From Gammaproteobacteria bacterium (GTDB lineage: Bacteria; Pseudomonadota; Gammaproteobacteria; JAADJB01): a DNA stretch of 47,615 nt. The stretch is from positions 1 through 47,615 of the forward strand of contig JAADJB010000034.1 in NCBI GenBank assembly GCA_013151035.1. Reading direction: 5' to 3'. Below the pieces are notes generated by a model. That model did not search any database. It was given only the letters and a program-made list of their open reading frames with translations, and had not been told where the DNA came from. Of this stretch, positions 1,205 through 18,803 are shown piece by piece; the first letter of the stretch is position 1, and every line of letters begins with the position of its first letter. The translations under genes and the position numbers were made by a program.

Positions 1205-1657
1205 TTACTGCTGCGTCACACCCAACGCCTTCCATACCACTGGATCATCAGTCATATAAAAAACAGGCTCCATTTTTCTCAATTCAATAACATCTGTTAT
1301 TTCATTTATTGTTACAACTTTATATCGTGGATAGCCCCTTGGAAATCCTTCAAGTTGATCTTTCAACCACATAGTTCTAATTCCAGGTTGATCCTCTGTT
1401 GTCACCGTATATTCTTTAATGCTTAATATTTTTCCTGACTTATTTAACGCAAACACTGCTTTTCCACCACTAAAAGTACTATACAAGTCCATCTTCACAG
1501 ATAACTCTGATCGCATGGTGTCTTGTGATAAATGAAACCACCGCGGTAATCTCGATTCATCTGCAAGCTCAAAACTTGATTCAAGACACCCGGAAAGATT
1601 GATTAAAAAAACTGATAACATCAATCTTAATAAAAAAAATTTATTGACGGATGCCAA
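1205..1657 (-). CDS. Small lipoprotein, paralog 1 of 4 (candidate immunity protein)
   Basis: This 150-residue lipoprotein has a type II signal with lipobox LSGC (Cys24). The residue after Cys is Leu, not Asp, so outer-membrane anchoring facing the periplasm is expected. After the Cys all four paralogs share ESSF/EARF-like starts, a SRLPRWF motif, a YY/YS-FNL beta core, and an end near VFYMTDDPVVWKALGV. The start overlaps the end of paralog 2 by 17 bp, so the two are co-transcribed. No named family is recognised. The proposed role, protection against the phospholipase-like tail of the Rhs protein encoded upstream, is inferred from order, location and paralogy. Confidence 0.8.
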   Translation of the reverse strand: MASVNKFFLLRLMLSVFLINLSGCLESSFELADESRLPRWFHLSQDTMRSELSVKMDLYSTFSGGKAVFALNKSGKILSIKEYTVTTEDQPGIRTMWLKDQLEGFPRGYPRYKVVTINEITDVIELRKMEPVFYMTDDPVVWKALGVTQQ

Positions 1658-2069
1658 ATTCTTCCAAAATAGCCGGTTCGTTAGTCATATGAAAAATATT
1701 ACTTCTCTCTCGATGCTCAATAACATCAGTTACACCATCAACAATAACAATCTCATACATCGGATAATTTTCCGGTGAACCTTCCGGTGGATTTTTAAGC
1801 TGGAGAGGATAAATGCCCATTTCTCCTTTTACTTTTTTAAGCCTCGTACCATTATCACCATACAATTTAAAAACCGCTTCTCCGCCACTAGATTTAATAT
1901 AGTAATCAACTGTTACCCTAAGTTCATCTCGTGACATACCTTCTGGTATATCAAACCATTTTGGCAGTCTACTTTCAGAGCTGAGTTCAAACCTTGCTTC
2001 CACACATCCTGATAAGTTACAGGATAAAACAACAATTAAAACCGCTAATGTAAAAAAATGCTTTAACAT
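1641..2069 (-). CDS. Small lipoprotein, paralog 2 of 4 (candidate immunity protein)
   Basis: This 142-residue lipoprotein has lipobox LSGC (Cys22). It shares with its neighbours the SRLPKWFDIPEG segment, the DYYIKSSGGEAVF core, a PPEGSPENYPMYEIV segment and the C-terminal HMTNEPAILEEFGI ending. It is the most divergent of the four at the C-terminus, where the conserved Trp of DPAVWK is lost. It overlaps paralog 1 by 17 bp and sits 75 bp downstream of paralog 3. As for the others, the family is unknown and the immunity role is an inference. Confidence 0.8.
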   Translation of the reverse strand: MLKHFFTLAVLIVVLSCNLSGCVEARFELSSESRLPKWFDIPEGMSRDELRVTVDYYIKSSGGEAVFKLYGDNGTRLKKVKGEMGIYPLQLKNPPEGSPENYPMYEIVIVDGVTDVIEHRERSNIFHMTNEPAILEEFGIRQ

Positions 2070-2144
2070 AATTGTCTCTTTATCCCGCTAAAGTTAAAAA
2101 GCACTATTGCATCGTTAACAACTAAAAACAATAAATGTCCATTA

Positions 2145-2579
2145 TTATCTCTGCTCTACTCCCAACGTCTTCCATACCGCTGGGTCATCCGTAATATAAA
2201 AAACAGACTCCATTTTTCTGTGTTCAATTATCTCGGTAATTCCATTAATTGTAATTACTTGATACATGGGATAATGCTTAGGATACCCTGCTGGTGGATT
2301 TTTCAATTTAAGCGGCCCATTTTTCAATGTATCACCCGATAGTTTTTCTCGGATAAATGTTTTTTCCTGAAGAGCCAAAAAATTAAAAACAGCCTCACCA
2401 TCTGTATAGTAATCAAGCGTTACCTTCACATCACTCCGGGATACTCCTTCAGGAATTGAAAACCATCGTGGCAGCCTTGATTCATCCGATAAATCAAAGC
2501 TTGATTCAAGACACCCCGTTAAAATCAATGCCAAATATACAATAACTATCCTTGATAATATTTTCATATAACTACTCAT
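2145..2579 (-). CDS. Small lipoprotein, paralog 3 of 4 (candidate immunity protein)
   Basis: This 144-residue lipoprotein has lipobox LTGC (Cys23); Met5 is an alternative start. The core motifs are SRLPRWFSIPEGVSR, YYTDGEAVFNF and a C-terminal third (YPKHYPMYQVITINGI... to VFYITD) that is identical in protein sequence to paralog 4, while the N-terminal halves differ clearly. The nucleotide sequence is also nearly identical there (about 2190-2310 versus 3090-3225), pointing to recent duplication or gene conversion. The palindromic element at 2591-2722 lies immediately upstream, as it does for paralog 4. Confidence 0.82.
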   Translation of the reverse strand: MSSYMKILSRIVIVYLALILTGCLESSFDLSDESRLPRWFSIPEGVSRSDVKVTLDYYTDGEAVFNFLALQEKTFIREKLSGDTLKNGPLKLKNPPAGYPKHYPMYQVITINGITEIIEHRKMESVFYITDDPAVWKTLGVEQR

Positions 2580-2590
2580 TACTGCTCTGT

Positions 2591-2722
2591 TAACTCAAGA
2601 GACAGGGATTGCGCTTCTCTATCAGAGACCCTTGCCCGCATGGACGCGGGCATGGAGCCTACACGGATGTATTCACGGCGTGTCTCTGGTAGAGAAGCGT
2701 GATTCATGTCTCGAACTTACCA
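2591..2722. repeat. 132-bp imperfect palindromic element, copy 1
   Basis: Nearly the whole element is self-complementary: the left arm (CGCTTCTCTATCAGAGAC, 2612-2629) matches the right arm (GTCTCTGGTAGAGAAGCG, 2682-2699) and weaker pairing extends to both outer ends. The centre holds a 6-bp hairpin (GCCCGC/GCGGGC). Copy 2 (3481-3612) has a centre of about 60 bp that is almost identical, but arms of different sequence that are still complementary to each other. It lies directly before the start of lipoprotein paralog 3. It may be a small non-autonomous mobile palindrome or a structured RNA. Confidence 0.75.
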
Positions 2723-2760
2723 GGCATATTTTTTCGATGAATATCATATTATTATATTGA

Positions 2761-3054
2761 TTAACTAAACCCGGAAATAGACCACAAAATCACAGCTAAA
2801 AACCCCTCCAACCAGGGTAACAATAATAATATAAATGAGGGTAGACAATACCAAAACCACCGCTGTTTCCAACCCTGTTGATAAATCACATAACTAAAAC
2901 ACGCAAATCACAATAACAGCAAGACAAGCAGATAAAACAATCGATATTCAAGCTGCCAGGTATATTGCGGCCAGAGATAGATCAGACCTGCGAATAGATA
3001 ACAGCCCAGGCACAACAGCCATGATGATCCATTGCTTTTTACTTGAAGAACCAT
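2761..3054 (-). pseudogene. Broken small membrane-protein gene (in-frame TGA)
   Basis: A start codon at 3054, one base past the stop of lipoprotein paralog 4 and with an AGGAG site five bases upstream, opens a hydrophobic frame (MVLQVKSNGSSWLLCLGCYL...). It runs 48 codons to a TGA at 2908-2910. The same frame then stays open for another 48 codons of similar Trp-rich hydrophobic sequence (FACFSYVIYQQGWKQRWFWY...LWSISGFS) to TAA at 2761-2763. Read through, it would be about 97 residues with three to four membrane segments. I do not recognise the family. Either the gene is decayed by one nonsense mutation or the first half is a 48-residue membrane peptide. No hairpin typical of a selenocysteine signal is evident after the TGA. 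Confidence 0.6.
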
Positions 3055-3055
3055 A

Positions 3056-3475
3056 TTACTCCTGCACCACACCCAACGCCTTCCACACCGCTGGGGCATC
3101 CGTAATATAAAAAACAGACTCCATTTTTCTGTGTTCAATTATCTCAGTAATTCCATTAATTGTAATTACTTGATACATAGGATAATGCTTAGGGTACCCT
3201 GTTGGTGAATTTTTCAATTTAAGCGGTATCCTGGAAATATCAGATCGTAATTTAGATAATTCATTCCCATCCTTCCCATATAATGTAAAAATCACTTCCG
3301 CTTCCCATGGATTAAGGTAATAGTCCATAGTTAACTTCAACTCCTCACGAGAAACATTACTGTTAACATGAAACCAACCGGGAAGCCGAGAACCCAATGA
3401 CAATGTAAAACTTGACTCTTTGCATCCGAAAATACTAATAGCTAATATAAAAACAACAAACGCCTTCATTACCAT
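3056..3475 (-). CDS. Small lipoprotein, paralog 4 of 4, nearest the Rhs gene (candidate immunity protein)
   Basis: This 139-residue lipoprotein has lipobox IFGC (Cys18; Lys follows). It has the shared SRLPGWFHVNSNVSREEL segment, the DYYLNPWEAEVIFTLYG core, and the C-terminal third identical to that of paralog 3. It is the first gene downstream of the giant Rhs-type gene (208 bp away), the place where cognate immunity genes of polymorphic toxins normally sit, with one palindromic element between them. Immunity lipoproteins in tandem copies are known for phospholipase effectors of type VI secretion systems (Tle/Tli pairs). The analogy supports, but does not prove, the role here. Confidence 0.82.
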   Translation of the reverse strand: MVMKAFVVFILAISIFGCKESSFTLSLGSRLPGWFHVNSNVSREELKLTMDYYLNPWEAEVIFTLYGKDGNELSKLRSDISRIPLKLKNSPTGYPKHYPMYQVITINGITEIIEHRKMESVFYITDAPAVWKALGVVQE

Positions 3476-3683: not shown

Positions 3684-6600
3684 CTACTGAAAAAAACCAC
3701 TATTGCATTTATTACAAGACTTGGAACCACCCAAACCAGAAGATATCCATGATGATAAATTACAGGAATTATTATCGTAACAAACATCATGCTTCTGACA
3801 TCGCCCTGAAAAACATGAATCACCAATAGGTCCTAATGGCCACGGGAGAGAACATTTTCCGCCATCTTGGGAGGTATAACCATCCCATACATTCCCATTA
3901 TCATCACTAATCAAATCCCCCGCCTCAGACACATAAAGGAAGCTCCAAAGAAGAATAACTCCCGTAACAGGATCAACCTCTCCTGTAGGGTCGATATGCA
4001 TAAGCGGATTATTATCAACATAGTTATAACTATGGTTTAAATAAGCAATACCTTTACTTGCAGGTATTGCAATCCCTGTCATAGTTGCAACTTGTCGCAT
4101 GGGATCAGAAAAATCAAGCGATTGGCCGCGCGGATCAGCTGTCAAATAGCGACCTGATTCAGGTTCATAATAACGATAATGGTTATAGTGCAGAGCGGTC
4201 TCCGCATCAAAATACTGCCCCGGATAACGCAAATTACAGATGGGTGCATTCACCGAAAAATCATTGACAATAGCTTCTCCAAAAGCCCAATAATCTATCC
4301 GTGATACTACGTTGGCCTGTTCATCCGTCAACACAAGCGGGGCACCAATATGATTGGTATGGATATAATAAATCGAGCCATAAGAATTTGTTGCGGCATG
4401 AACGCTGTCTGGCATCAACCATGAAAGTGATGATGACACCCAATCCTTAACTCTGGACAGATCCAGCAGGCGTGTTGTTAATAACAGCATATCCTGTAGA
4501 TCAATCACCCCATCGAGGTTGATATCAGCATGCAGATAATCGCTTTTGTCCGGCACACGATCACTCATAATAATATCGACCAGCAACAGATAATCACCCA
4601 CATCAATACTGGCATTACCATTCATATCACCATCACCGGGATATTGATTACCCGCTAATGGATTGGTGCCCTGATCAATCTCCAGACCGTCATTAAACCC
4701 GTCCTGGTCGCTATCTTCCTGATTAACATCGGAGCCAATAACAAACCATTCATCATTATTTGAAACACTATCATGGTCATTATCGGCAAATACCATCACT
4801 GTTTGTTCATTTACATCATCCAGACCATTGGCATCGCTATCAACCTGATACTGCGCCAACAGGCGATCACCCACATAGATATATTCACGCAATACCCGTC
4901 CCCATAAATCAGCCTCTGCTACCAGATGGCCAGCCGGATCATAAAAATATTGATAACCATCAGCCCCAGACAGGGTCTTTTTAACACGCTGCCCCATAGC
5001 GTTATAGGCATATTCAACGATCAGACCACCGGCCTGATACACCTCACGCAACTGGGCATGAGCGTTATACAAAAAATCATACTGCGTATTATTCAACTGA
5101 TTACCATAGGCATCATAACTAACCGCAATACCATCAATAAAAAGCAGATGATTGCTATCGTTTGCATACGCAAGCGATTGAACAGACTCTCCTAACCCAT
5201 CTTTAACGGTTAAACGATTCCCCGATTGATCATAGCCATAGACACGCTGACCCAGGCGGGTCTGCTCTGATAGTAACCGACTCAATCCATCATATTGATA
5301 TTCATCGATGGTTCCCTGCAACAAGTTCGATTGAACTAAAATATGACCGTTCGCATCATAGCGATCATACTGTTTGTTATACACGCTTGATAATTGCTCA
5401 GATACCACTCGATAGGCCCTATCATAATCACGTTGCATCAATAGACCATTGCCATATTTAACCTGACGAATACCACCGTAGGGGATATGCTGAATCGAAT
5501 AAGCCAGAACTTCCTGACCCGCACCCCGATCAACTGATACCGAGCTAACCTGCCCACTCATATCATAGCTATAAAAAACGATAAGCCCGGAAGGATAGAC
5601 TGATTTAATCAAGCGATCGGCATCATCGTAATAGTAATAAAGGCCTTGGTACTGACTCACCCGACCCAGGGAATCATACTGATAAAACAGACTATTCCCT
5701 GCCTGAACAATGCGACACAAACGACCCTGCCCATTTTCACACTCATCATAGATATAAACAATGTCGTCACTAATACCCATGGCATCAACCTGTATCAGAC
5801 GATTACGCACATCATATAAATAAGTAATCTCATCACCTTGCACATCCATTCCCAGCACACGATTACCCGCCTCATCATATCGCCATAAATGATCACCTTT
5901 ATCAGCTGATTTATCCTCCAGCAGATTACCCAGATCATCATAAACCCGTGTAGTCATAACCTGTCGTTCAGGCGTTGACAACGTCCGTCTGCTACCAACA
6001 TCATAGCGATACTCACGCTCTGCATAAGGGATTAGCCGATCATCCCCTGCTAGGATCGTTTCACCTACTAACTGTTGTAGCAAATCATAACGATATACAC
6101 GTTCCAGATTATTCCCATCAATCGTTTTTTCAAGTAAGCCAAGTGAATCATATGAAAAGGATTTTATCTCATTCTCCTGTGTACGCTGTAGCACCTGATT
6201 AACCCGATTATAGGCATACGATAACTGTTTCCATTGCCTTCCATCAGAATCATTAACCGTCAATACAGTGCGATTACCTTCTTCATCCAACACATAATCA
6301 ATACGCTCTCCGGCATCATTACTTAACCCTGTCAATCGTCGGGCATCATCATAGCTAAAATAAATACTGCTCTGTGATGGACTCTCATAGGAAAATTCAA
6401 TCGATTTAACCTCACCTGTAGCCAGATAACGCCAACGAGTCTTACGCATATTACCTGCCGTTCTTTCTATCAATAACTCAAGACGGTCGCTTAATAATGA
6501 ATAACGATATTCCAGTGCCAGGCCATTCGTCCGTTTTTCGGATAACAACTGACCTGATGCGGTATATTGAATGTCATCCCTCAGCAACATCCCATCCTCG

Positions 6601-8804
6601 GCAATTACCCGACGTAGACGCGCCCGGTTATTCCCGACAATCTCATCGTCCGGATAATATTCAAAATAGCGTATATCTGTAACATCTGTACGTGCCCCAT
6701 CGCGTTGACTGACCTGATGCAAAGGCCCCTGATATTGCGCACTATAATGGCGTTGAACGATTTCTCCCTGCGGGGTAAAACCTGTTACGCCCCATGCCAG
6801 GAGATTGGCATAGTCATCATAATCATATTGCAGCACCCGACGCGCTGATGAATCCAGCTGATTAACCGATGGCTCCGAGCGCATGCCTAGCCGCTGAAAG
6901 AAACGTCTATCATATTGATAATCTGTACGCCGTGACTGAGCAGAACCTGCCGCCTCAATTTGATAACCGGGATTACCATGCGCATCAAACCCACCCCGAG
7001 TTAGCAACACACCACGCCCATCACGAATACCCACAATATTATTACTTACATCATAGTCATAATCCCTGACTGTCCCATCACAGGACTGACAGGCCTGTCC
7101 TTCGATATGATTAACAACAAAGATACCGTTACGCCGTTCCGTACCATATTCACTGCGATAGCCCCTTGCATTAGTCACATAACGCACACCATCAGCACGG
7201 TATTCAATATCAATACGATCAGCATTTTGTGCATGATAGCTCGATATAACCCGACCCACCGAATCATAGTCATACCAGGAAAAACGAAGATCACGTTGAT
7301 CGGTAATACCGGTCAGGGCACTCGGAAACAAATTATTCTCATAATGATATTGTTTCACCGTAGCATCAGGATAGCGTAAAAATTGCAGATTATTAATTGC
7401 ATCATATTCAAATGACCAGGCACGTTGCGTCTTGTCCTGAATCATGGAGGGTCGTCCCTGTTGGTCATAGCTGATCACCATGAAAAACCCCAGGTTGTTC
7501 TCTACCCGCAATAACTGACCATTAGCCGAATAATTCAGTGACTGATAATTTCCTTTAATATCCACAATGAGGATCAAACGCCCGAAATAATCATAATATT
7601 CACGACTATCATTCTCTCGATAAAGCACCCAACCCATCAGATTACCCGCAGCACTCACCTGTGCCATAAGTTTGCCAATAAAACCGGTATCATTGACCCA
7701 TTCATCATCCGGTTGTTGATGAAACAGCACTTGCTTACCATCAGCCCGTGTCAATACTACCCTTGCACCGGCAGCCGCTACTTCATAAGGCAAACCCGTT
7801 GTTGCCATACGCACAGGGAAATCACCCCAAACCTTGTCACTAATACCATAGCGTATCTGACAACGCCCATTATCCAGTAAGACTGCTGACGATTCAGTAG
7901 CCCAGGCTAATGAGTAACCGGCCTTGATCTGACCCCAACCATTAATACAGGCCGCCTCTGCGGTATCAAACTTAAGATCATTTTTTGCGGGAAAGCGTTC
8001 TTGTTCAGTGCTGGAGGCGAGTGCTATTGACGAGGAAAAGGAATGCCTCCAACCTTGCCCAAGACCACGATCAACATCATCCATCTTATTATAAAAAAGA
8101 TTAAACGACATTGCAGCAGGGCCATAACTCATCCTGATCGTTTCTTGATGAAATTTATTCCCGCTAGCTGGATTAACCGGGTTACCGATAAACCCGCTCC
8201 CTTTCGGGCAACGACCCAGACTCTCTCCCGCAGGTTCTAATACATCTTTTGCTAACAAATAATACTGCTGTTTACAAAGACTACGCCTCGCCTCATCCAT
8301 CCCCCACTCAGAACCGGGTGGACAATAAGACCAATTAACCTTTATAAAGTTATGAACGACTGAAGACTTAACTATATCGCAACCAGGGTCATCTGGACGA
8401 TTGCCCATATAAGTAAAATAGCTTGCATCATAGGCTATCTCTTGTATGCGTAATTTCCCCCACACATCATCAAAGCTTATCCCCAACGACTCCCAGGCCT
8501 TACATGAATACGAGAAATCTATGAAGTTAAAAATTGTTGCTGAACGAGAGGAGGCAGAAAAACCGGTCGACCCATCATCGCTGATATCACATAACCCACT
8601 TAAGGATAGATCATAAGCCTTGTAGGCACTCACAGCCTCCCCCCTTGACTCAAAACAACCGATAGACGGCCAATAATTGCTATGTGAATAATAATCCTTT
8701 GTTTTCAGCATAGGCACCTCGACATAAGCCGATAGATCAACCGTAAAGATCATTAAACCCATCATTAAAGAATAATGAACAAAATAAAAAACATCCTTGT
8801 ACAT
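3684..8804 (-). CDS. Secreted Rhs/YD-repeat protein with TSP3- and dockerin-like insertions and a phospholipase A2-like C-terminal tip
   Basis: This is a 1706-residue protein from ATG 8804, chosen for its AAGGA site and a plausible signal peptide ([20 protein letters not shown]...); the open frame extends 55 codons further without signal or ribosome site. Around residue 205 is the Rhs opening motif [11 protein letters not shown], followed by about 1100 residues of YD repeats (YxYDxxGN...). Residues about 1330-1388 carry Asp-rich TSP3-like repeats ([12 protein letters not shown]). Residues about 1391-1448 hold two dockerin-type EF-hand-like repeats ([24 protein letters not shown]). The conserved Rhs core ([14 protein letters not shown] to YLTADP) ends with DPTG at 1608. 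The 98-residue tail is Cys-rich and contains CQKHDVCY (His1672, Asp1673), like the catalytic His/Ca-binding Asp of phospholipase A2. It is short for a full PLA2 domain. The toxin role is inferred; Sec export rather than type VI loading is suggested. Confidence 0.85.
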
Positions 8805-8927
8805 AATGCATTCCTTTGCATAATTCTCGTCACAAGCTTCTCCCTGCCTGGTATAACTTAACCAACAAGAGTCGCTTGAACAATCATCATATCGCTCTTT
8901 ATTTTGTAAGAAAAATCTTAAGTTTTC

Positions 8928-8936
8928 TGGTAGAAT
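8928..8936 (+). promoter_or_regulatory. Extended -10 promoter of the SulP gene
   Basis: TGG followed by TAGAAT (8931-8936) fits an extended -10 element. It lies 38 bp upstream of the ATG at 8975, with no good -35 hexamer at the standard distance. The 170-bp gap to the divergent Rhs-type gene must hold both promoters; I cannot place the minus-strand one. Confidence 0.5.
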
Positions 8937-8974
8937 ACGCGCCTTTCCATGATTCCATATAAAGAGCACATGCT

Positions 8975-10504
8975 ATGTTTCAGCTTGGTTGCGTCAATCG
9001 CGCCTGTTTTCAAAATGAGATTTTATCTGGCCTAACCGTTGCACTGGCACTGGTTCCCGAGGCTGTTGCCTTTGCCTTTGTTGCTGGCGTGGAGCCACTG
9101 GTTGGCCTATATGCCGCCTTCATGGTGGGTCTGCTGGCAGCCATCTTTGGTGGTCGCCCTGGTATGATCTCCGGGGCAACCGGTGCCATGGCGGTGGTCA
9201 TGGTGGCACTGGTTGCAGAGCATGGTGTCGAATACCTTTTTGCTACCGTGGTACTGACAGGACTCATCCAGATCTCTGCCGGATTATTGCATCTGGGCAA
9301 ATATATTCGTATCGTGCCACATCCGGTCATGCTCGGTTTCGTCAATGGTCTCGCTATTGTCATCTTTCTTGCTCAATTAAATGGTTTTCAGATCACTGAT
9401 GAATACGGTGTCAATCAATGGATGCAAGGTGAAGCACTGTGGATATTGTTAGGTCTGATTGCAATGACGATGGCTATTATTCATTACCTACCAAAATTAA
9501 CCACTCGTTTCCCCTCTTCATTGGCCGCTATTCTCACCGTCAGTCTGCTAGTGATTTTCATGAACATTGATACCAAGACAGTAGGTGATATGGCCTCTAT
9601 TGAAGGTGGCTTCCCTCAATTTCATATCCCTGAGGTTCCCCTAACGATGGAGACCCTGTTTATCATCTTGCCCTATGCCATCATCCTGGCGGCCATCGGC
9701 CTGATTGAATCTCTGCTAACCCTGAGCCTGATTGACGAACTCACCAATACCCGTGGTCGTGGTAATCGGGAATGTATTGGTCAGGGTATCGCCAACACAG
9801 CAACCGGCTTATTTGGTGGCATGGGTGGTTGTGCCATGATTGGTCAGAGTATGATTAATGTAAATTCTGGTGGTCGTCAACGTCTGTCCGGTATCTCGGC
9901 AGCTCTGTTCCTACTGTCTTTCATCCTGTTTGCTTCACCCTTGATTGAGATGATCCCGATGGCGGCCTTGATTGGTGTCATGTTCATCGTTGTTGTGGGC
10001 ACCTTCGAGTGGTCCAGTCTGCGTATTATCAACAAGATCCCACGCTCGGATGCCTTTGTTCTAATCCTGGTATCGGGGGTCACGGTAGCCACTGATCTGG
10101 CTATTGCTGTTATTGTCGGGGTCATCGTATCGGCACTGGTATTTTCCTGGGAACATGCCAAACACATCAGTGTTCATGGTTACAATGATGAAAATGGTTC
10201 GCGTATTTATGAACTCAGCGGCCCTTTGTTTTTTGGCTCAGCCAAGAATTTTCTGGAGCTGTTCCACCCTGAGCAGGATCCTGATGATGTCATTATTGAA
10301 TTTCAGAATTCGCGGGTTGTTGATCACTCAGCCATTGAGATTATTGATACCCTGGCAGAGCGTTATATTGCCGCAGGAAAGAAACTCCATCTACGTCACC
10401 TAAGCCCTGAATGTAGGGAACTCTTACATAAGGCGGGTGATCTGGTTGAGGTTAATATGATGGAAGATCCAACCTATCATATCGCCGATGATGAGTTAGC
10501 CTGA
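8975..10504 (+). CDS. SulP-family inorganic anion transporter with STAS domain
   Basis: This 509-residue protein starts with the SulP signature [31 protein letters not shown] and has about 10-12 membrane segments up to residue 400. A cytoplasmic STAS domain follows (about 415-505; [23 protein letters not shown]). SulP proteins carry sulfate, bicarbonate or other anions, usually by Na+ or H+ symport. Its short N-terminus and overall pattern resemble the bacterial SulP group often annotated as sulfate or bicarbonate transporters, and the substrate cannot be fixed from sequence. It stands alone on the plus strand, divergent from the Rhs-type gene and convergent with the hemerythrin gene, with a strong palindromic terminator region after it. 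Confidence 0.9.
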
Positions 10505-11038: not shown

Positions 11039-11063
11039 AAAACCGGGGTCTGTCCCCGGTTTT
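11039..11063 (-). terminator. Intrinsic terminator of trhP
   Basis: AAAACCGGGG and CCCCGGTTTT form a perfect 10-bp stem around a 5-base loop, with T-rich flanks on both strands. The structure overlaps the trhP stop codon and precedes the hemerythrin gene. Confidence 0.8.
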
Positions 11064-12369
11064 ACAGATTCCGAGCCAACAATGCCAGATCATAATCGAT
11101 ACCTTGTGGTAATGGAATCCTGACCTGATAGCCGCCACCGGGTGCCTCATTCATCAAGCCACCTTTGAGATCCTGCATCTCACCCAGGGTAATCTGTTGA
11201 TTACCCTGTGCGGTAATCAACTCAATGGAATCACCCACGACAAACTTGTTCTTGACTTCAATATCGGCCCAGCCACTATCATTATTATAGGATATAATCT
11301 CGCCGACAAACTGTTGCTTACGACTACCCGAATAATTATCAATATAATTTTGGTATTCATGGGTATGATGACGCTCAAAGAAACCATCGGTGTAACCCCG
11401 GTTGGCAAGGTTTTCCAGTTCACCCAGACTGTTTGGATCAAACGGGCGGCCAGCCACCGCATCATCAATCGCACGCCGATAGATCTGGGCGGTACGGGCA
11501 ACATAATAATGTGATTTGGTACGTCCTTCTATCTTCAAACTATCCACACCCATCTTCACCAAACGTTCGACATGCTCAATCGCACGCAAATCCTTTGAGT
11601 TCATAATATAAGTGCCGTGCTCATCCTCTTCAATCGGCATCATCTCACCCGGACGTTTTTCCTCTTCCAGCAGATAAGGTTTATCCGCATCCGGATGACG
11701 CGGCGCATTGCCACACTCCGACATCGAAATCTTCACCTCTTCACTGTTGTCATCCTTTACCTTGTAATCCCAACGACAGGCATTAGTACAGGAACCCTGA
11801 TTGGCATCCCGATGATTCATATAACCGGATAACAAACACCGCCCGGAATACGCCATACACAAGGCACCATGCACAAAGACCTCCAGCTCCATATCCGGGC
11901 ATTCATTACGAATCACTTCGACCTCATCCAGTGATAACTCGCGCGACAAAATAATGCGTGAAATACCGATACTCTGCCAAAATTTCACTGCTGCACTATT
12001 CATGGTATTGGCCTGCACCGAGAGATGAATAATCTGTTCAGGCCAACGCTCACGCACCATCATAATCAAACCCGGATCCGCCATAATCAGGGCATCCGGC
12101 TTAAGTGCAATCACCGGCTCCATATCCCTTATGTAGGTCTTAACCTTGGTCTCATGCGGTAATAGATTACTTGCCAGAAAAAAGGCCTTACCCGCCGCAT
12201 GAACATGAGCCATACCTTGTTCAAGCTGTTCCAGACTAGAGAAATCATTGTTACGCACACGCAGGGAATAACGCGGAATACCCGCATAAACCGCATCCGC
12301 GCCATAGGCAATGGCATATTTCAGGTTACGCATAGTGCCCGCAGGGGCCAGTAGTTCAGGTGTTTTCAT
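11062..12369 (-). CDS. trhP: Peptidase U32-family tRNA hydroxylation protein TrhP (YegQ)
   Basis: This 435-residue protein begins KTPELLAPAGTMRNLKYAIAYGADAVYAGIP, the U32 signature. It has the Cys-rich segment GALCMAYSGRCLLSGY...GSCTNACRW (about 168-200) expected to hold an iron-sulfur cluster, and SLKIEGRTKSHYYVA (about 280). TrhP (old name YegQ) takes part in prephenate-dependent 5-hydroxyuridine formation at tRNA position 34. Length is close to E. coli YegQ. Its ATG overlaps the stop of the AbiEii-like gene by 4 bp (ATGA), so this core gene is now translationally coupled to a toxin-antitoxin operon. Confidence 0.9.
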   Translation of the reverse strand: MKTPELLAPAGTMRNLKYAIAYGADAVYAGIPRYSLRVRNNDFSSLEQLEQGMAHVHAAGKAFFLASNLLPHETKVKTYIRDMEPVIALKPDALIMADPGLIMMVRERWPEQIIHLSVQANTMNSAAVKFWQSIGISRIILSRELSLDEVEVIRNECPDMELEVFVHGALCMAYSGRCLLSGYMNHRDANQGSCTNACRWDYKVKDDNSEEVKISMSECGNAPRHPDADKPYLLEEEKRPGEMMPIEEDEHGTYIMNSKDLRAIEHVERLVKMGVDSLKIEGRTKSHYYVARTAQIYRRAIDDAVAGRPFDPNSLGELENLANRGYTDGFFERHHTHEYQNYIDNYSGSRKQQFVGEIISYNNDSGWADIEVKNKFVVGDSIELITAQGNQQITLGEMQDLKGGLMNEAPGGGYQVRIPLPQGIDYDLALLARNL

Positions 12370-13106
12370 AAAAAATAATCGCGTGCAAATGTTGTCTCAT
12401 ATTCATCTATCTCATGACTAAAGTAACCGTATATCTGATTGTAATTTGCTACCAGATTGACCGCATCAAGCCCTTCATCATCCTTGTCTAAAGGGATCTC
12501 ACCACGCATGATGGACTTATAATATTCTGGATCATCTACACTACCCAGTGTTTTGACTGTAGTGAATAAATTCTCCAACGAATAATCATAATCGCGCATT
12601 AATATATAAAGGTCATACAGATCCCGCGACCGAACCCTATCAGCAAGTACAAGCGTCTTAGCCACCTTCAGTCCCTCAATGCCCAGAACATCAAAACTCA
12701 TACCCACTTTACACACCTTTTCTGTCGATTGGTAAAAGGCCTCTTGTTCATTATTCTTCCCATGAACAAAAAATGTGACCTTAACACCATCAATGACGTA
12801 ATCACGTGCATGATCAAGTAAATTCATACCGTAATTAATCTTGAAGCGAGAAATCATATCCGGGCTGGTGATCATCTGAGTCTGATGCCCTTCTCGCTTC
12901 AGACGCGAGATCAACTGGTCGATTAAAAAACCGGAAAGGACACCGCCAAATTGGGCAAAATCAAAATCAAGACTGGTACGGTGGCCGATCTGTAAGGCTA
13001 AAGCAGGACCGCCAACAAGGGTTAACCCTTCCATTTCTGATGCCCGTCCAAGCACATCCAGGAGCGCATTGGCTTCAGGGCGCAAGAGACTATAATGCAG
13101 GGTCAT
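12366..13106 (-). CDS. AbiEii-type nucleotidyltransferase toxin
   Basis: This 246-residue protein has the AbiEii/DUF1814 nucleotidyltransferase signature: LVGGPALALQIGHRTSLDFDF (residues 30-50), with Asp47 and Asp49 as likely metal ligands, then a GIEGLKVAKTLVLADRVRSRDLYDLY segment (about 143-168). AbiEii-type proteins act as toxins that transfer nucleotides, with tRNA as the target in characterised members. The 17-bp overlap with the upstream XRE-type gene indicates a two-gene operon. It could be a type IV-like abortive infection module. The downstream overlap with trhP is unusual. Confidence 0.85.
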   Translation of the reverse strand: MTLHYSLLRPEANALLDVLGRASEMEGLTLVGGPALALQIGHRTSLDFDFAQFGGVLSGFLIDQLISRLKREGHQTQMITSPDMISRFKINYGMNLLDHARDYVIDGVKVTFFVHGKNNEQEAFYQSTEKVCKVGMSFDVLGIEGLKVAKTLVLADRVRSRDLYDLYILMRDYDYSLENLFTTVKTLGSVDDPEYYKSIMRGEIPLDKDDEGLDAVNLVANYNQIYGYFSHEIDEYETTFARDYFL

Positions 13107-13611
13107 GACGCTGACAACAAGCTAATAAGAATCCCTTCTGTATACGCAGTAGCATTGAAACCATCTTGCTACTGACCACTGTATCTTGTAAACAGGACAA
13201 CTCATTGCTCACCTTGTCAAAACCAAAATAGGATACTATCTTCAATACATCATTAAAGCGAGCAGCCTTAAGCACCTTGCGAATAAAAACGCCTTCCTCC
13301 ATCTGACTATTCGACCAGTCGTATGGAAACTCTGTATCTAAAGACCTTGAATAATAACCAGACTGATCACCATCAACCCCATCAGTTATGGGACGTTCAA
13401 CCACTGCTAAATCCAGACCTGCAATATGCACCGCAGCCATTACCTTGGCAAACTCTGCCGTTGGCTTCCCACGCTCAAACTCAGACAGGAACCTAGGGCC
13501 TACCTTGGCCTGTGGTGCAGCGACACGCAATGCCAAGCCTTGTGACTCTCGCCCAAGACGCGCCAGTTTCCCAAGCTCATCCGGTGTCTGAAAAACCGTA
13601 TACTGCCTCAT
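13090..13611 (-). CDS. XRE/HipB-type regulator, antitoxin partner of the AbiEii-type gene
   Basis: The protein is 173 residues from ATG 13611 (MRQYTVFQTPDELGKLARLGRE). The open frame extends 20 codons upstream, but a consensus promoter (TTGTTT, 17 bp, TATAAT) places the transcript start near 13636, and GGGTGG lies before the chosen ATG. Residues about 10-75 form a helix-turn-helix domain (LALRVAAPQAKVGPRFLSEFERGKPTAEFAKVM). The C-terminal part, unlike HipB, has no domain I recognise and may hold the toxin-neutralising function. A perfect palindrome over its promoter suggests autorepression. Confidence 0.8.
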   Translation of the reverse strand: MRQYTVFQTPDELGKLARLGRESQGLALRVAAPQAKVGPRFLSEFERGKPTAEFAKVMAAVHIAGLDLAVVERPITDGVDGDQSGYYSRSLDTEFPYDWSNSQMEEGVFIRKVLKAARFNDVLKIVSYFGFDKVSNELSCLQDTVVSSKMVSMLLRIQKGFLLACCQRHDPAL

Positions 13612-13623
13612 TACGCCACCCAA

Positions 13624-13647
13624 ATAATATCCCGTACGGGATATTAT
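13624..13647 (-). promoter_or_regulatory. Perfect 24-bp palindromic operator over the promoter of the XRE/AbiEii operon
   Basis: The half-site ATAATATCCCGT (13624-13635) is followed directly by its exact complement (13636-13647). On the minus strand the -10 hexamer TATAAT (13648-13643) lies within the distal arm, and the -35 TTGTTT (13671-13666) is 17 bp further out. The centre coincides with the expected transcription start, so binding would block initiation. The palindrome is 13 bp upstream of the ATG at 13611. Confidence 0.85.
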
Positions 13648-13715: not shown

Positions 13716-13784
13716 AATGGGGGTCATTCAGCAGGTAATCGGCTGTTACTTCCTGCACAAGGGTCTCTTCTGTCATTGCCATAA
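13716..13784 (-). pseudogene. Short stub resembling the N-terminus of a type I restriction HsdR subunit
   Basis: An ATG near 13784, preceded by AAAGGGG and 11 bp past the DprA-like stop, opens a frame of 22 codons, MAMTEETLVQEVTADYLLND, then PH and a stop. From memory, TEETLVQ...TADYL matches the start of a group of type I restriction R subunits, where ELGW normally follows. Here the frame ends at once and no further HsdR sequence is seen before the XRE operon. I read it as the scar of a deleted restriction gene; it could also be an independent small peptide. Confidence 0.35.
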
Positions 13785-13794
13785 CGATTCCCCT

Positions 13795-15078
13795 TTAAGC
13801 CCGGTTCTTGATGTATTGATAACGAACCGGGCGATATAGCTTCTTAATATAACCATCATCAATCGCTCGCTTTAGCCAGTCAGTGACTTGCGTCTTGTGC
13901 AAACCCATTTTTTCAGGCAAGTCCGCACCACTTATCGGTTCAATCGCATATTGTGATAGTTCCTTGATAAATAGTTGGTAAAAATCAACGGGGGTGTCAA
14001 CAGTCTCTAAACCATGATCTTTAACTGGCTCTTCAACCTCTTTTACTGCATCTAATGTTTGAACATAATTGGTTTCAATCTCAAGCTCCTGAACCCGAAT
14101 GGAGAATAAATCTTCTTGTTTATCTGTTTGTAAGGATGCGTAGGATTGTTCCGCAGCGGCTAACAGCGAAGCTATATCGAGGTGCTGAATATCCGAGTCA
14201 CTCCAACGTCCACCTTTTTTTACCAGCATTTCATTGGCGGCTTCTTTGTCTTGTGTTGGCTTTACCCAGAGCGGCACCCATTGTTTCTTCAGATTTTCTT
14301 CTGCGCCATTCAATGTACCGCCTTTTTTGCCGGAATGAACCACAAATGACGTATCCGCCATGCAGTAAATATACTTATTCCGCGCCATAGCATTCCCCGC
14401 ATTAAATCCTGCTTCAGGATAGAAGGGCGATACAAGGACTGTATTTCCAGCCATTAAACCTTTTCGCCATTTAACGCCTGTCGCGGCTCTTAGAAGACTA
14501 TCAGCCATAATGCCAATCACATTCCCCCCCGCCTGCATTGCACCCTGCATTGCTGTTTCATCGACACCTCTAGCACCGCCTGAAACAATTCCTATACCTT
14601 GAGCTGCCGCTTTAGCGCCAAGCTGTTTAGTAAACAATAAGTCAGCATCACTGGCATTACGTGAGCCAACCACCGCGATACCCCCCCCATTCAGCAAAGC
14701 CTTGTTGCCACAACCGAATAACACCGGAGGAGAATTTGTTTGTAGTCGGGATTTCAATCGTTTGGGATACTCAGGATCAGAGCGCGTCACTACCCAGAGT
14801 CCCGCCCTGTGCCATTTTTCAATAGCTAACGCCAGGCTATGACCTCGGCTCAATAAAGCCAGGATGCGCTTCTCACCGATCTGAGCATCATACCACCCCA
14901 TTAACAATGGCTTCGGGTCAGAAACCAATAATTCTGCAGGTGTTATATTTTTATCTTTTAACCATAACGCAAAGCGACCCCATTCCACATTCGTGAGTGG
15001 TTTAGCCTTTTCGTTACTCGCCTTACTGAAATAACAGGTCAACAGTAAAGTGGCCTGTGCGGTTGCTGATAAATTCAT
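13795..15078 (-). CDS. DprA-like protein of a DprA/PRTase pair (ShosA-like)
   Basis: This 427-residue protein has the DprA Rossmann core: PPVLFGCG (about 116-123), IAVVGSRNASDADL (about 134-147) and GIVSGGARGVDETAMQGA (about 163-180). A basic linker and a C-terminal winged helix (ISGADLPEKMGLHKTQVTDWLKRAI) follow. Housekeeping DprA loads RecA on incoming DNA. This copy is more distant and overlaps the RecQ/phosphoribosyltransferase gene by 4 bp. DprA-family proteins paired with phosphoribosyltransferases are known as ShosTA, a toxin-antitoxin defence module with the DprA protein as antitoxin. Assignment to that system is inferred from pairing, not from a match to a described sequence. Confidence 0.8.
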   Translation of the reverse strand: MNLSATAQATLLLTCYFSKASNEKAKPLTNVEWGRFALWLKDKNITPAELLVSDPKPLLMGWYDAQIGEKRILALLSRGHSLALAIEKWHRAGLWVVTRSDPEYPKRLKSRLQTNSPPVLFGCGNKALLNGGGIAVVGSRNASDADLLFTKQLGAKAAAQGIGIVSGGARGVDETAMQGAMQAGGNVIGIMADSLLRAATGVKWRKGLMAGNTVLVSPFYPEAGFNAGNAMARNKYIYCMADTSFVVHSGKKGGTLNGAEENLKKQWVPLWVKPTQDKEAANEMLVKKGGRWSDSDIQHLDIASLLAAAEQSYASLQTDKQEDLFSIRVQELEIETNYVQTLDAVKEVEEPVKDHGLETVDTPVDFYQLFIKELSQYAIEPISGADLPEKMGLHKTQVTDWLKRAIDDGYIKKLYRPVRYQYIKNRA

Positions 15079-16932
15079 GAACCCTTTACCGATGTTGAGG
15101 CCAGGGTAACTGGAAATACCACACCGCTCCCTGCCTGTTGTAATAATGCGGCCAATACAGTAAGCGTCCAGCCTGAATCAACAATATCGTCAACGAACAA
15201 CACGGGCTGGTCTTTATGAAGTTGCTTTACAGCAAAGACACCATCCAGATTGTGACACTGGTGAAAACTATTTTGCTGACCTTTTTGCGGTTGATTATCT
15301 TTAACTTTTTCCACCGCATCCAAAAATGGCAGCCCTAATCTGTTGGCAAGACGTTTGGCAAAATCAGGTACCAAGTCTGGGTGATTACGTGACGGCACAC
15401 AACATACCCATGTTGGCGAAGGGCCGGGTTGCCAGCGCTGTTGAATCATCTCAGCCATGGCTTCAACTAAATCATCACCAAAGTAATTAGCATGCTTACC
15501 ATCCGCGACAACCTTACCCCAACCAGCATCTCCCCAGCGTGATAGTACACGTCCGTCTTGAGCCACCAATTTGCCTAAAAGACGAGGAAACTGGTAAGCA
15601 GGAAAGGCCCTTTCAGTTTCAGCATTCGATGGTGCAACTTGTTTTCTAGGGGAGATAACTATTTCAGCTTGCTTCAAAAAACTCGCAGCACGATGAACGA
15701 GCAGAGCATTCACCTCAATATTAATCAGCAACTGGCCAAGGCAGGAAGAACACTTTCCACAGGGAGTTGGTGCTGAATCATCCAGCGCACGGCGTAAGTA
15801 GCTCATTTTACAGCCGGCATCCGCTATGTAGGCTTGCACCTCAGCCCACTCCTGTTCACGCTGGCCGGTCAGGTGCGCAATGCGGGCATGATCCATCACA
15901 TAAGGAACCGCTGTTCTACGCCACTGACTGCCCACTTTAATAACCGGTGCCGGGTTTTCTACGCTGAGTAGTTTTAAAACCTTTTCTATTTGCCCATGAC
16001 GAAGGTTCGTCTGCTCTTCGATAGCACGAAGCGATAGACCATCACACTGTGCTAAAAGCACCAGAATTTCATTCACATGGGCTTCAGAGGGAAAGGCCGA
16101 CTCACGGAAAAAATTATGAATATCCCCATCTTCCACCCCCGACATCAACACACCCAGCGCATGGTCGATACCTCTCCCGGCACGACCAACTTGCTGGTAG
16201 TAGGCAACAATAGAACCGGGTGCCTGATAGTGAATAACAAAGCTCAGGTCAGGTTTATCGTAGCCCATACCCAGGGCAGTTGTTGCAACCAATACTTTTA
16301 GCTGATTATTCAACAATAATTCTTCAAGATACAGGCGATAGGAATGACTGTTATCAAAATCATCTGCCTGAACACTGCCATGATAGGCTTTGGCATCAAT
16401 ACCGTTTTGCGTTAACCAATTAGCGACCTGTTCGGCATCCCGCACCGTCAGGGTGTAGACAATACCAGTCCCTTGCAAGCCTGGAATCACCTGTGCCAGC
16501 CAGGCCAAACGCGAAGCCTGGTCGGGTAAAACCAGGGCTTGCAGGCCAAGACTATCTCGCCCAAGAGATCCACGTTGAACCTGGATATTACCCAACTGCT
16601 GTTGAATATCTTCTACCACACGGTTATTGGCAGTGGCAGTTGTGCCCAATACCGGTGTATTGGCAGGCAACTGGCGCAGTATGTTCAAAACACGCTCAGT
16701 TACCGCTTGCCAATCGGCTGTATTGCTGGAGTTCATTGTCGCGGAAAACTCGAGTACTGATAAAGTAAACCGAACTTTTCCCCCAGCCGGTACGCTGCAC
16801 CACCAATAGTTTTTGCTGTTGATTAATCAGCGCAGCTATCGCTTCCCACTGGCCCTCACGAAACTGTGCCGCAGGATTTCCCAACGCGGTTTGCAGTAAT
16901 TGTTCGGCTTGGTTTCGATTCATGGTGTTCAT
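15075..16932 (-). pseudogene. RecQ-type helicase fused to phosphoribosyltransferase, with internal deletions
   Basis: Two overlapping frames form one damaged gene. The 5' part (16932 down to about 16740) starts MNTMNRNQAEQLLQTALGN and has the Walker A region VVQRTGWGKSSVYFI, then shifts frame. The 3' part (from about 16736, 553 codons) resumes at NSSNTADWQAVTERVLN and jumps to ILRQLPANTPVLGTTATAN (motif III). Motif Ia and the DEAH box expected between are absent, so at least two deletions have removed them. After that come helicase motifs to VGRAGRGID, a zinc-binding Cys cluster (CGKCSSC), and a C-terminal phosphoribosyltransferase domain with PRPP loop VLFVDDIVDSGWTLT. ATP-driven unwinding must be lost. 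The zinc and PRTase parts plus the intact DprA-like partner could still work. Confidence 0.82.
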
Positions 16933-17300
16933 ATTTGAGTATTCCAGCTCAGGGAAAGGCTTTCGGCCACCTGATGTAGTCGCTTATCCCGTGTCCAGAT
17001 GTTTGCCGTTCCGTCCAATGCAACCGCAGCCAATAAATGCGTATCAATATAACCAATGCCCTTACCCATTAATAAGCGCTGCTCGATAAAAAAATGCACT
17101 TCTGTATCCAGCGCGGTTGTAATCTGGGGGAGTGCAGCCAGCAAATGCAGCAGCTCAACACGGTTTGTCAGGTTGCCACAGGCCAGTTCCCCTGAAATAT
17201 ACGGGTGCATTAACACCTGGCTATTATTCAATAAAGCCGCCAGCGTATCGTCATGATGGCGCAGATGATCAATCCACACCGATGTATCCACCAGAATCAT
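16929..17300 (-). CDS. vapC: VapC-type PIN-domain toxin
   Basis: This 123-residue PIN-domain ribonuclease starts MILVDTSVWIDHLR (Asp5 first acidic ligand). It has Glu38 in SGELACG and later acidic residues in GYIDTHLLAA and TRDKRLHQ, the metal-binding set of the family. VapC toxins cut tRNA or rRNA. The upstream neighbour is a VapB-like antitoxin, 6 bp away. Its stop overlaps the start of the RecQ/PRTase pseudogene (ATGA), so the pair heads a coupled cluster. Confidence 0.92.
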   Translation of the reverse strand: MILVDTSVWIDHLRHHDDTLAALLNNSQVLMHPYISGELACGNLTNRVELLHLLAALPQITTALDTEVHFFIEQRLLMGKGIGYIDTHLLAAVALDGTANIWTRDKRLHQVAESLSLSWNTQI

Positions 17301-17306
17301 GCGAGA

Positions 17307-17504
17307 TTATTTCCTGTTAGATTGACGGCGACTAATGGAATCCAGCTCCGGCTCAGTGCCCCCCAGTTTGGCCAGACGGCGAGCACTTTCCCGCTCAATC
17401 AGGGCATGTAAACCTTCACGCACCAGCGCCACTTTCTCGGTTAAATGGCTCACCCGCTGCGCTTCTGCCAGCAAATCATCATCTATATTTAGTGTTGTGC
17501 GCAT
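17307..17504 (-). CDS. vapB: VapB-type ribbon-helix-helix antitoxin
   Basis: This 65-residue protein begins MRTTLNIDDDLLAEAQRVSH, the ribbon-helix-helix start common to VapB antitoxins, followed by TEKVALVREGLHALIERESARRLAKLGG, the arm that usually contacts VapC. A strong AAGGAGG site stands 6 bases before the ATG. It should repress the vapBC operon from the AT-rich 17505-17560 region, where no clear palindrome was found. Confidence 0.9.
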   Translation of the reverse strand: MRTTLNIDDDLLAEAQRVSHLTEKVALVREGLHALIERESARRLAKLGGTEPELDSISRRQSNRK

Positions 17505-17624: not shown

Positions 17625-18803
17625 TTATTTAATGCCCACCGCAGCCGAGGCCATCTCTGCCTTCTCAACCGCCGCCTCAATCGAATCTGCACGCGCCAGC
17701 ACCACGCCCATGCGCCGTTGCCCTTGCACTTCCGGTTTTCCAAACAGGCGTAATTGAGTATCCGGCTGTTCCAGGGCTTTTTGTAGATTGCCAAATACAG
17801 GTTGCGTAGACACACCCTCGGCAAGAATAACACTGGATGCTGAGGGGCCAAGCTGTCGAATAGCAGGAATGGGTAAACCCAGTATGGCACGGGCATGCAG
17901 GGCAAACTGGGAGAGATCCTGTGAGATCATAGTCACCATACCGGTATCATGCGGACGAGGAGAAACTTCGCTAAAAATCACCTCATCACCACGGATAAAC
18001 AACTCTACACCAAAAACACCATAGCCACCCAGCGCATCCGTTACCTTATGTGCAATCTCTCTTGCCATTGCCAGCGCCTGTTCTGTCATCGCCTGAGGTT
18101 GCCAGGAACTACGGTAATCACCATCCACCTGAATATGGCCAATGGGTTCACAGAAATGGGTACCACCAATATGACGCACTGTTAGTTGAGTGATTTCATA
18201 ATCAAATTCAACAAAACCTTCAACAATCACTCGCCCTGCCCCGGTACGCCCACCCTCTTGTGCATACGTCCAGGCTTGATCAATATCCGTCTCACTACGA
18301 ATGGTGCTTTGTCCCTTGCCGGATGAACTCATAATCGGTTTGACTACACAGGGAATACCAATATCAATAACCGCCTGATCAAAGGCAGCCCGATCATCGG
18401 CAAAACGATAAGGTGAGGTCTTTATACCTAGATCCTCTGCTGCCAAACACCGTATCCCTTCACGGTTCATCGTTAACTGTGCCGCACGCGCAGTCGGTAT
18501 CACGTTAAAACCTTCCTGTTCCAGATCAACCAGGGTACTTGTGGCTATTGCCTCAATCTCGGGGACGATATAATCCGGTTGCTCCTGCTCAATCACTGCT
18601 CGCAATGCCACTGCATCCTGCATTGAGATAACATGGCTACGATGTGCCAGCTGCATCGCTGGCGCATTGGCATAACGATCCACCACAATCACCTCAACCC
18701 CATAGCGTTGCAGTTCGATAACAAGTTCTTTACCGAGCTCTCCACCGCCACATAACAGGACACGCGTTGCCGTTTTTGATAAAGGAGTACCAATAGATGT
18801 CAT
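17625..18803 (-). CDS. purT: Formate-dependent phosphoribosylglycinamide formyltransferase (GAR transformylase 2)
   Basis: This 392-residue ATP-grasp enzyme converts GAR, formate and ATP to FGAR in purine synthesis. The start [30 protein letters not shown], the EIEAIAT motif, the ATP-grasp [12 protein letters not shown] (about 156-167) and [14 protein letters not shown] (about 277-290) are the standard PurT features, and length equals that of E. coli PurT. It starts 3 bp past the end of the PAS/GGDEF/EAL gene, so the two are probably co-transcribed. It marks the right border of the toxin/defence island. Confidence 0.96.

Follow-up and report, generated by a model that had tools for sequence, protein, structure and literature searches.

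A broken PsyrTA (RqlHI) module, probably the decaying remnant of a type I restriction operon, in a gammaproteobacterial contig

PsyrTA, called RqlHI in Escherichia coli, pairs a toxin in which a RecQ-type helicase is fused to a C-terminal phosphoribosyltransferase (PRTase), PsyrT or RqlH, with a DprA-like antitoxin, PsyrA or RqlI. Both toxicity and its neutralisation by the antitoxin are known for E. coli RqlHI: RqlH is toxic only with its PRTase domain, and RqlI holds it in check (PMC4670107). The helicase point mutants K49A and D148A still lower viability and induce the SOS response, and helicase activity is therefore unneeded for harm (PMC4670107). PsyrTA is listed as a defence system from Millman 2022; for it, too, toxicity, neutralisation and phage defence are known, from Millman 2022 and Sberro 2013 as PMC10121019 and PMC8790059 cite them. 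In one native-host study, no protection by PsyrTA could be detected with the phages that were tried. The locus considered here lies in contig JAADJB010000034.1 of a Gammaproteobacteria bacterium (assembly GCA_013151035.1, 54 contigs), of which a stretch of 47,615 nt, the window, was analysed. It carries a PsyrTA pair with a broken toxin gene and a whole antitoxin gene, followed by a scrap of hsdR, and is probably a decaying module formerly embedded in a type I restriction operon of the order hsdM–hsdS–psyrT–psyrA–hsdR.

Gene identities were assigned by Pfam, NCBIfam and PADLOC profile scans. The cluster is flanked by purT (17625–18803) and trhP (11062–12369), and all genes of interest are on the minus strand, in the transcription order vapB, vapC, psyrT fragment 1, psyrT fragment 2, psyrA, hsdR scrap, Xre-type regulator and AbiEii-like nucleotidyltransferase. 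Fragment 1 of psyrT (16696–16932) encodes 78 residues of the helicase N-terminus, including Walker A (GWGKS), and matches positions 1–64 of the 689 in the PADLOC PsyrT profile (E=1.4e-24). Fragment 2 (15075–16736) encodes 553 residues with helicase motifs III–VI, the zinc/RQC region and the PRTase; it matches positions 166–687 of the same profile (E=2.1e-215) and carries Pfam matches to Helicase_C and Pribosyltran (PF00156). Directly 3' on the same strand, psyrA (13795–15078) encodes a whole DprA-like protein of 427 residues, matching the PADLOC PsyrA profile across nearly its full length (E=1e-171) and Pfam DNA_processg_A (E=4.8e-43). It has its own Shine–Dalgarno sequence (AAAGG) and overlaps psyrT by 4 bp (ATGA, 15075–15078).

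An earlier note, made from the DNA alone, had named VapB, VapC, a RecQ-like helicase, a PRTase, a DprA-like protein and the two flanking genes, and coordinates and profile scans bear this out. It had also described a RecQ–PRTase fusion, which stands by homology, since both halves match one PsyrT profile; as one protein it does not, since a frameshift leaves two open reading frames (ORFs). By its sequence the DprA-like gene is PsyrA/RqlI and the fusion PsyrT/RqlH. The pair thus belongs to an already described system, of which the RecQ–PRTase fusion is the normal toxin. The window shares with that system the helicase–PRTase architecture, the 4-bp overlap, the C-terminal extension of the DprA-like protein and about 69% DNA identity to the E. 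coli copies; it differs in that the toxin gene is broken by two deletions, with motif Ia and the DEAH box lost and the frame shifted. It would thus be a degraded member of the family by descent rather than a working one.

The resemblance to ShosTA which had been noted earlier is real in so far as both systems use a PRTase toxin with a DprA-like antitoxin in the same toxin–antitoxin and defence logic, and the window PsyrA does match the ShosA profile (E=1e-27) and the solved ShosA structure 9vzo (E=1.6e-08). It does not extend to membership. The match to PsyrA (E=1e-171) far exceeds that to ShosA, and in the window a RecQ-like helicase carries the PRTase as its C-terminal part, whereas ShosT stands alone; ShosTA is ruled out. 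A search for PsyrA in phages returned weak DprA-like matches only.

The break in psyrT was defined by DNA alignment (blastn offsets) against the intact copies of relatives L020, L025 and L044, and also against E. coli copies. The alignment falls into three collinear blocks, and thus two deletions separate the window gene from intact ones. The first (junction 16735–16740, 95 bp missing relative to L020 and L025) lies just past the Walker A region, takes motif Ia and shifts the frame. It shows 0–1 nt of microhomology, the window reading CGCGACA joined to ATGAACTCC where L020 has CGCGACAGGGG...GAAACCATGAACTCC. The second (junction 16682–16694) keeps the frame and takes out 171 bp, the DEAH box region among them; in L020 it is flanked by imperfect direct repeats (GTATTTTAAAT / GTATTGTGAAT). 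About 56 bp are retained between the two. Past deletion 1, fragment 1 continues in the wrong frame and ends, 78 codons long, at a stop at 16696. The earlier claim that motif Ia and the DEAH box are lost was confirmed against four intact relatives, the cause being two deletions and not one. Walker A is kept, and helicase motifs III–VI, the CGKC..C zinc region and the PRTase loop VDDIVDSGWT agree with the E. coli copies, in keeping with the view that the zinc/PRTase part and the DprA-like gene are whole. A programmed frameshift joining the two fragments is unsupported: the only candidate is a G5A4 run in the Walker A codons, of equal length in relatives. The genome assembly contains no second copy of psyrT and no stray copy of the deleted segment.

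Directly 3' of psyrA lies the remnant of hsdR (13716–13782), which consists of a ribosome-binding site and the first 22 codons (MAMTEETLVQEVTADYLLNDPH) and is then cut off. The HsdR-like stub had been proposed previously, and it is genuine. It aligns with a score of 92, where 200 shuffles reached 38 at most, and shares 94.7% of 19 amino-acid residues with L026 HsdR, with 82–85% DNA identity over about 57–67 nt to several operons. The remnant is the likeness to a type I restriction–modification operon; the locus differs from one in that hsdM and hsdS are missing and hsdR is a mere scrap. Searches of the window for HsdM and HsdS with tblastn gave nothing meaningful, and no 3' scrap of hsdS was found 5' of psyrT (score 22, shuffle maximum 30). 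Contig C19 of the genome carries a different type I hsdR (39% identity).

The origin of the scrap is suggested by a survey of 50 psyrTA relatives, in which 47 downstream and 49 upstream neighbours were typed. HsdR is the downstream neighbour of psyrA in 15 of the 47, HsdS is the upstream neighbour of psyrT in 14 of the 49, and the layout hsdM–hsdS–psyrT–psyrA–hsdR is present in 14 of the 50, so that the association of homologues with defence genes raised in the earlier note was found on checking. Whole hsdR genes in relatives start 13–36 nt after psyrA. The L026 operon was typed in full as HsdM, HsdS, PsyrT, PsyrA and HsdR, with thirteen others alike, although hsdM of L019 is cut by a contig end and hsdR of L041 is shortened. 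The five genes are recorded intact in L026, L027, L028, L030, L032, L049–L052, L062, L063, L065, L088 and L090. Within E. coli, annotated copies of the operon are present on a conjugative plasmid and on a chromosome; psyrTA is free in other E. coli, and K-12 MG1655 has no rqlHI. As in the window, hsd scraps alone adjoin psyrTA in eight other relatives: decayed hsdR 5' starts downstream of psyrA in L021, L022 and L024, and hsdS 3' ends upstream of psyrT in L034 (the weakest match, score 47 against a shuffle maximum of 34), L036, L042, L043 and L061. The PsyrA tree joins the window first to the free copies of L020 and L025, and then to the embedded copy of L019 (97/80 and 100/96 support). Repeated loss of hsd genes around psyrTA is well supported, and the tree leaves unsettled whether the embedded or the free state is older overall.

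PsyrTA therefore recurs inside type I operons, in gammaproteobacteria far apart from one another as well as on a conjugative plasmid of E. coli; orphan copies keep hsd scraps. No description of this arrangement was found in the open-licence literature searched, and no claim is made that it is unreported. Tentatively, there might be a class of type I restriction operons in which PsyrTA has a working role, for instance that of a guard or backup which attacks the cell's own DNA once restriction is inhibited or fails. Copies such as that of the window might then be what is left when the hsd genes have gone and the toxin has been disarmed. Such a role is a minority possibility at present, albeit one which the five-gene pattern makes testable in E. 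coli, as a guard or addiction function. The window alone is one more degraded member of a known family, and the wider operon pattern is the more interesting by-product.

By analogy with the published E. coli RqlHI work, intact PsyrT would be a DNA-damaging effector, bound and restrained by PsyrA. Probably, the locus has lost hsdM and hsdS and all but 22 codons of hsdR from a former operon; the unrelated vapBC pair has come to lie against psyrT, and psyrT has been broken by the two deletions, psyrA staying whole. Loss of the toxin before the antitoxin would be the expected order of decay for such a pair, because losing the antitoxin first would harm the cell. The window copy is probably inactive, because psyrT is broken; no functional toxin would be made, and PsyrA would be a leftover.

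Relatives offer some parallel. When those with psyrT running off a contig are set aside, 48 remain; six of these combine a broken psyrT with a whole psyrA (L045, L048, L056, L061, L064 and L066), and none has a clearly broken psyrA with an intact psyrT. L046 alone has a shortened PsyrA C-terminus, and the C-terminal helix–turn–helix was dispensable in the published RqlHI work (PMC4670107). In L064 a psyrT without the PRTase part (514–1827) stands beside a whole psyrA. A Shigella rqlH split by an insertion is mentioned by Russell and Mulvey (PMC4670107).

Several points weigh against the reading of the locus as a decaying former operon member. The excess of broken toxin genes over broken antitoxin genes is small, and in part it is to be expected, psyrT being the longer gene; it is suggestive only, since errors in draft genomes may account for some of the frameshifts. 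An assembly error is possible. Furthermore, relaxed selection on the residual psyrT was looked for at invariant sites and in the distance ratio, and none was measurable. Residual PsyrT carries 11 unique changes at otherwise invariant columns, of which 7 are the deletion junction aligned out of place, which leaves 4, as many as in the highest other rows (L046, L048 and L052); the ratio of PsyrT to PsyrA amino-acid distance, 0.672, is mid-range among 25 rows. An unrelaxed ORF of 553 residues fits either a recent break or a remnant still in use. The frameshift, together with the lack of a visible ribosome-binding site, makes the recent break the likelier of the two.

If the remnant were in use, ribosomes would still make the 553-residue fragment, either reinitiating at ATG 16736 or shifting frame, and it would act as a helicase-free effector held by the intact PsyrA. 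The ORF is long and unbroken, its PRTase motif is intact and its constraint unrelaxed, psyrA is whole, and the harm caused by RqlH K49A and D148A shows that such an effector need not have helicase activity. The psyrT ORF of L056 (about 7992–9605) likewise begins after helicase lobe 1, beside a whole psyrA. Against this, ATG 16736 is an internal Met codon in relatives with no visible Shine–Dalgarno sequence ahead of it in the window, and a frameshifting 95-bp deletion is unexpected under selection for the product. A helicase-free effector is thus unlikely. The natural break bears on a question raised by the RqlHI work, that of whether the PRTase stays toxic once the helicase is lost.

That the deletions are an artefact of assembly or strain mixing, and the true genome has an intact PsyrTA, is a very improbable explanation. 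The fragmented assembly and the unrelaxed residual sequence are compatible with it. However, two separate deletions with unlike junctions, one at an imperfect direct repeat and the other with almost no homology, resemble real deletions, and the missing segment is absent elsewhere in the assembly. Finally, it is scarcely tenable that VapBC and the RecQ–PRTase/DprA pair form one functional operon and with it a new composite system of defence, which would extend the reading of the earlier note: vapBC is packed tightly against psyrT on the same strand, but psyrT is broken in the window, none of the 50 relatives has VapB or VapC 5' of psyrT, and the lone VapB match lies downstream in convergent orientation.

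The decaying PsyrTA module is best read as sitting between two unrelated toxin–antitoxin-like pairs, of which vapBC is the first. The vapB gene (17307–17504) encodes an antitoxin of 65 residues (Pfam VapB_antitoxin, PF09957, E=1.2e-16, above the Pfam cutoff) behind a strong Shine–Dalgarno sequence (AAGGAGG), and vapC (16929–17300) encodes a PIN-domain toxin of 123 residues (Pfam PIN, PF01850, E=2.3e-08, above the Pfam cutoff), its NCBIfam VapC match (E=2e-08) being under the curated cutoff. At the profile level these are predicted to be a VapBC pair in the usual order, with nothing unusual about it except that it adjoins psyrT. VapBC had been counted in one compact defence island with the pair, and a recurring partnership is not what the survey found; a conserved vapBC–psyrT operon is ruled out by the relatives, and VapBC is best read as an independent neighbour. 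Nor do 4-bp overlaps run throughout, as had been stated: that at psyrT/psyrA is firm, vapB and vapC are 6 nt apart, and the overlap of vapC with psyrT depends on an ATG which lies 9 nt ahead of the start conserved in relatives (MNRNQ..., ATG 16923). The VapB of L037 (5365–5553, minus strand), 59% identical to that of the window, lies downstream of psyrA and convergent to it at a contig end of a Methylococcaceae metagenome-assembled genome, and is probably a coincidence.

The second pair, overlooked by the earlier note, shares the purT–trhP gap (12366–13611, minus strand) and is adjacent to but separate from psyrTA. It comprises an Xre/HipB-like antitoxin-type regulator (13090–13611; NCBIfam couple_hipB, E=2.9e-09, under cutoff) and an AbiEii-like nucleotidyltransferase (12366–13106; Pfam AbiEii, E=8.6e-09). 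Promoter and terminator scans gave counts not above those in shuffles and were not used. A perfect 24-bp palindrome, ATAATATCCCGTACGGGATATTAT, lies at 13624–13647, just 5' of the Xre/HipB-like gene, and may possibly serve as an operator. Elsewhere in the window, a large Rhs-repeat protein (3684–8969, minus strand) ends, on inspection of its sequence, in a segment resembling a phospholipase A2-like motif. Four tandem, related lipoprotein-like genes of about 140 residues each follow 3' of it (1205–3475, minus strand) and could be candidate immunity genes.

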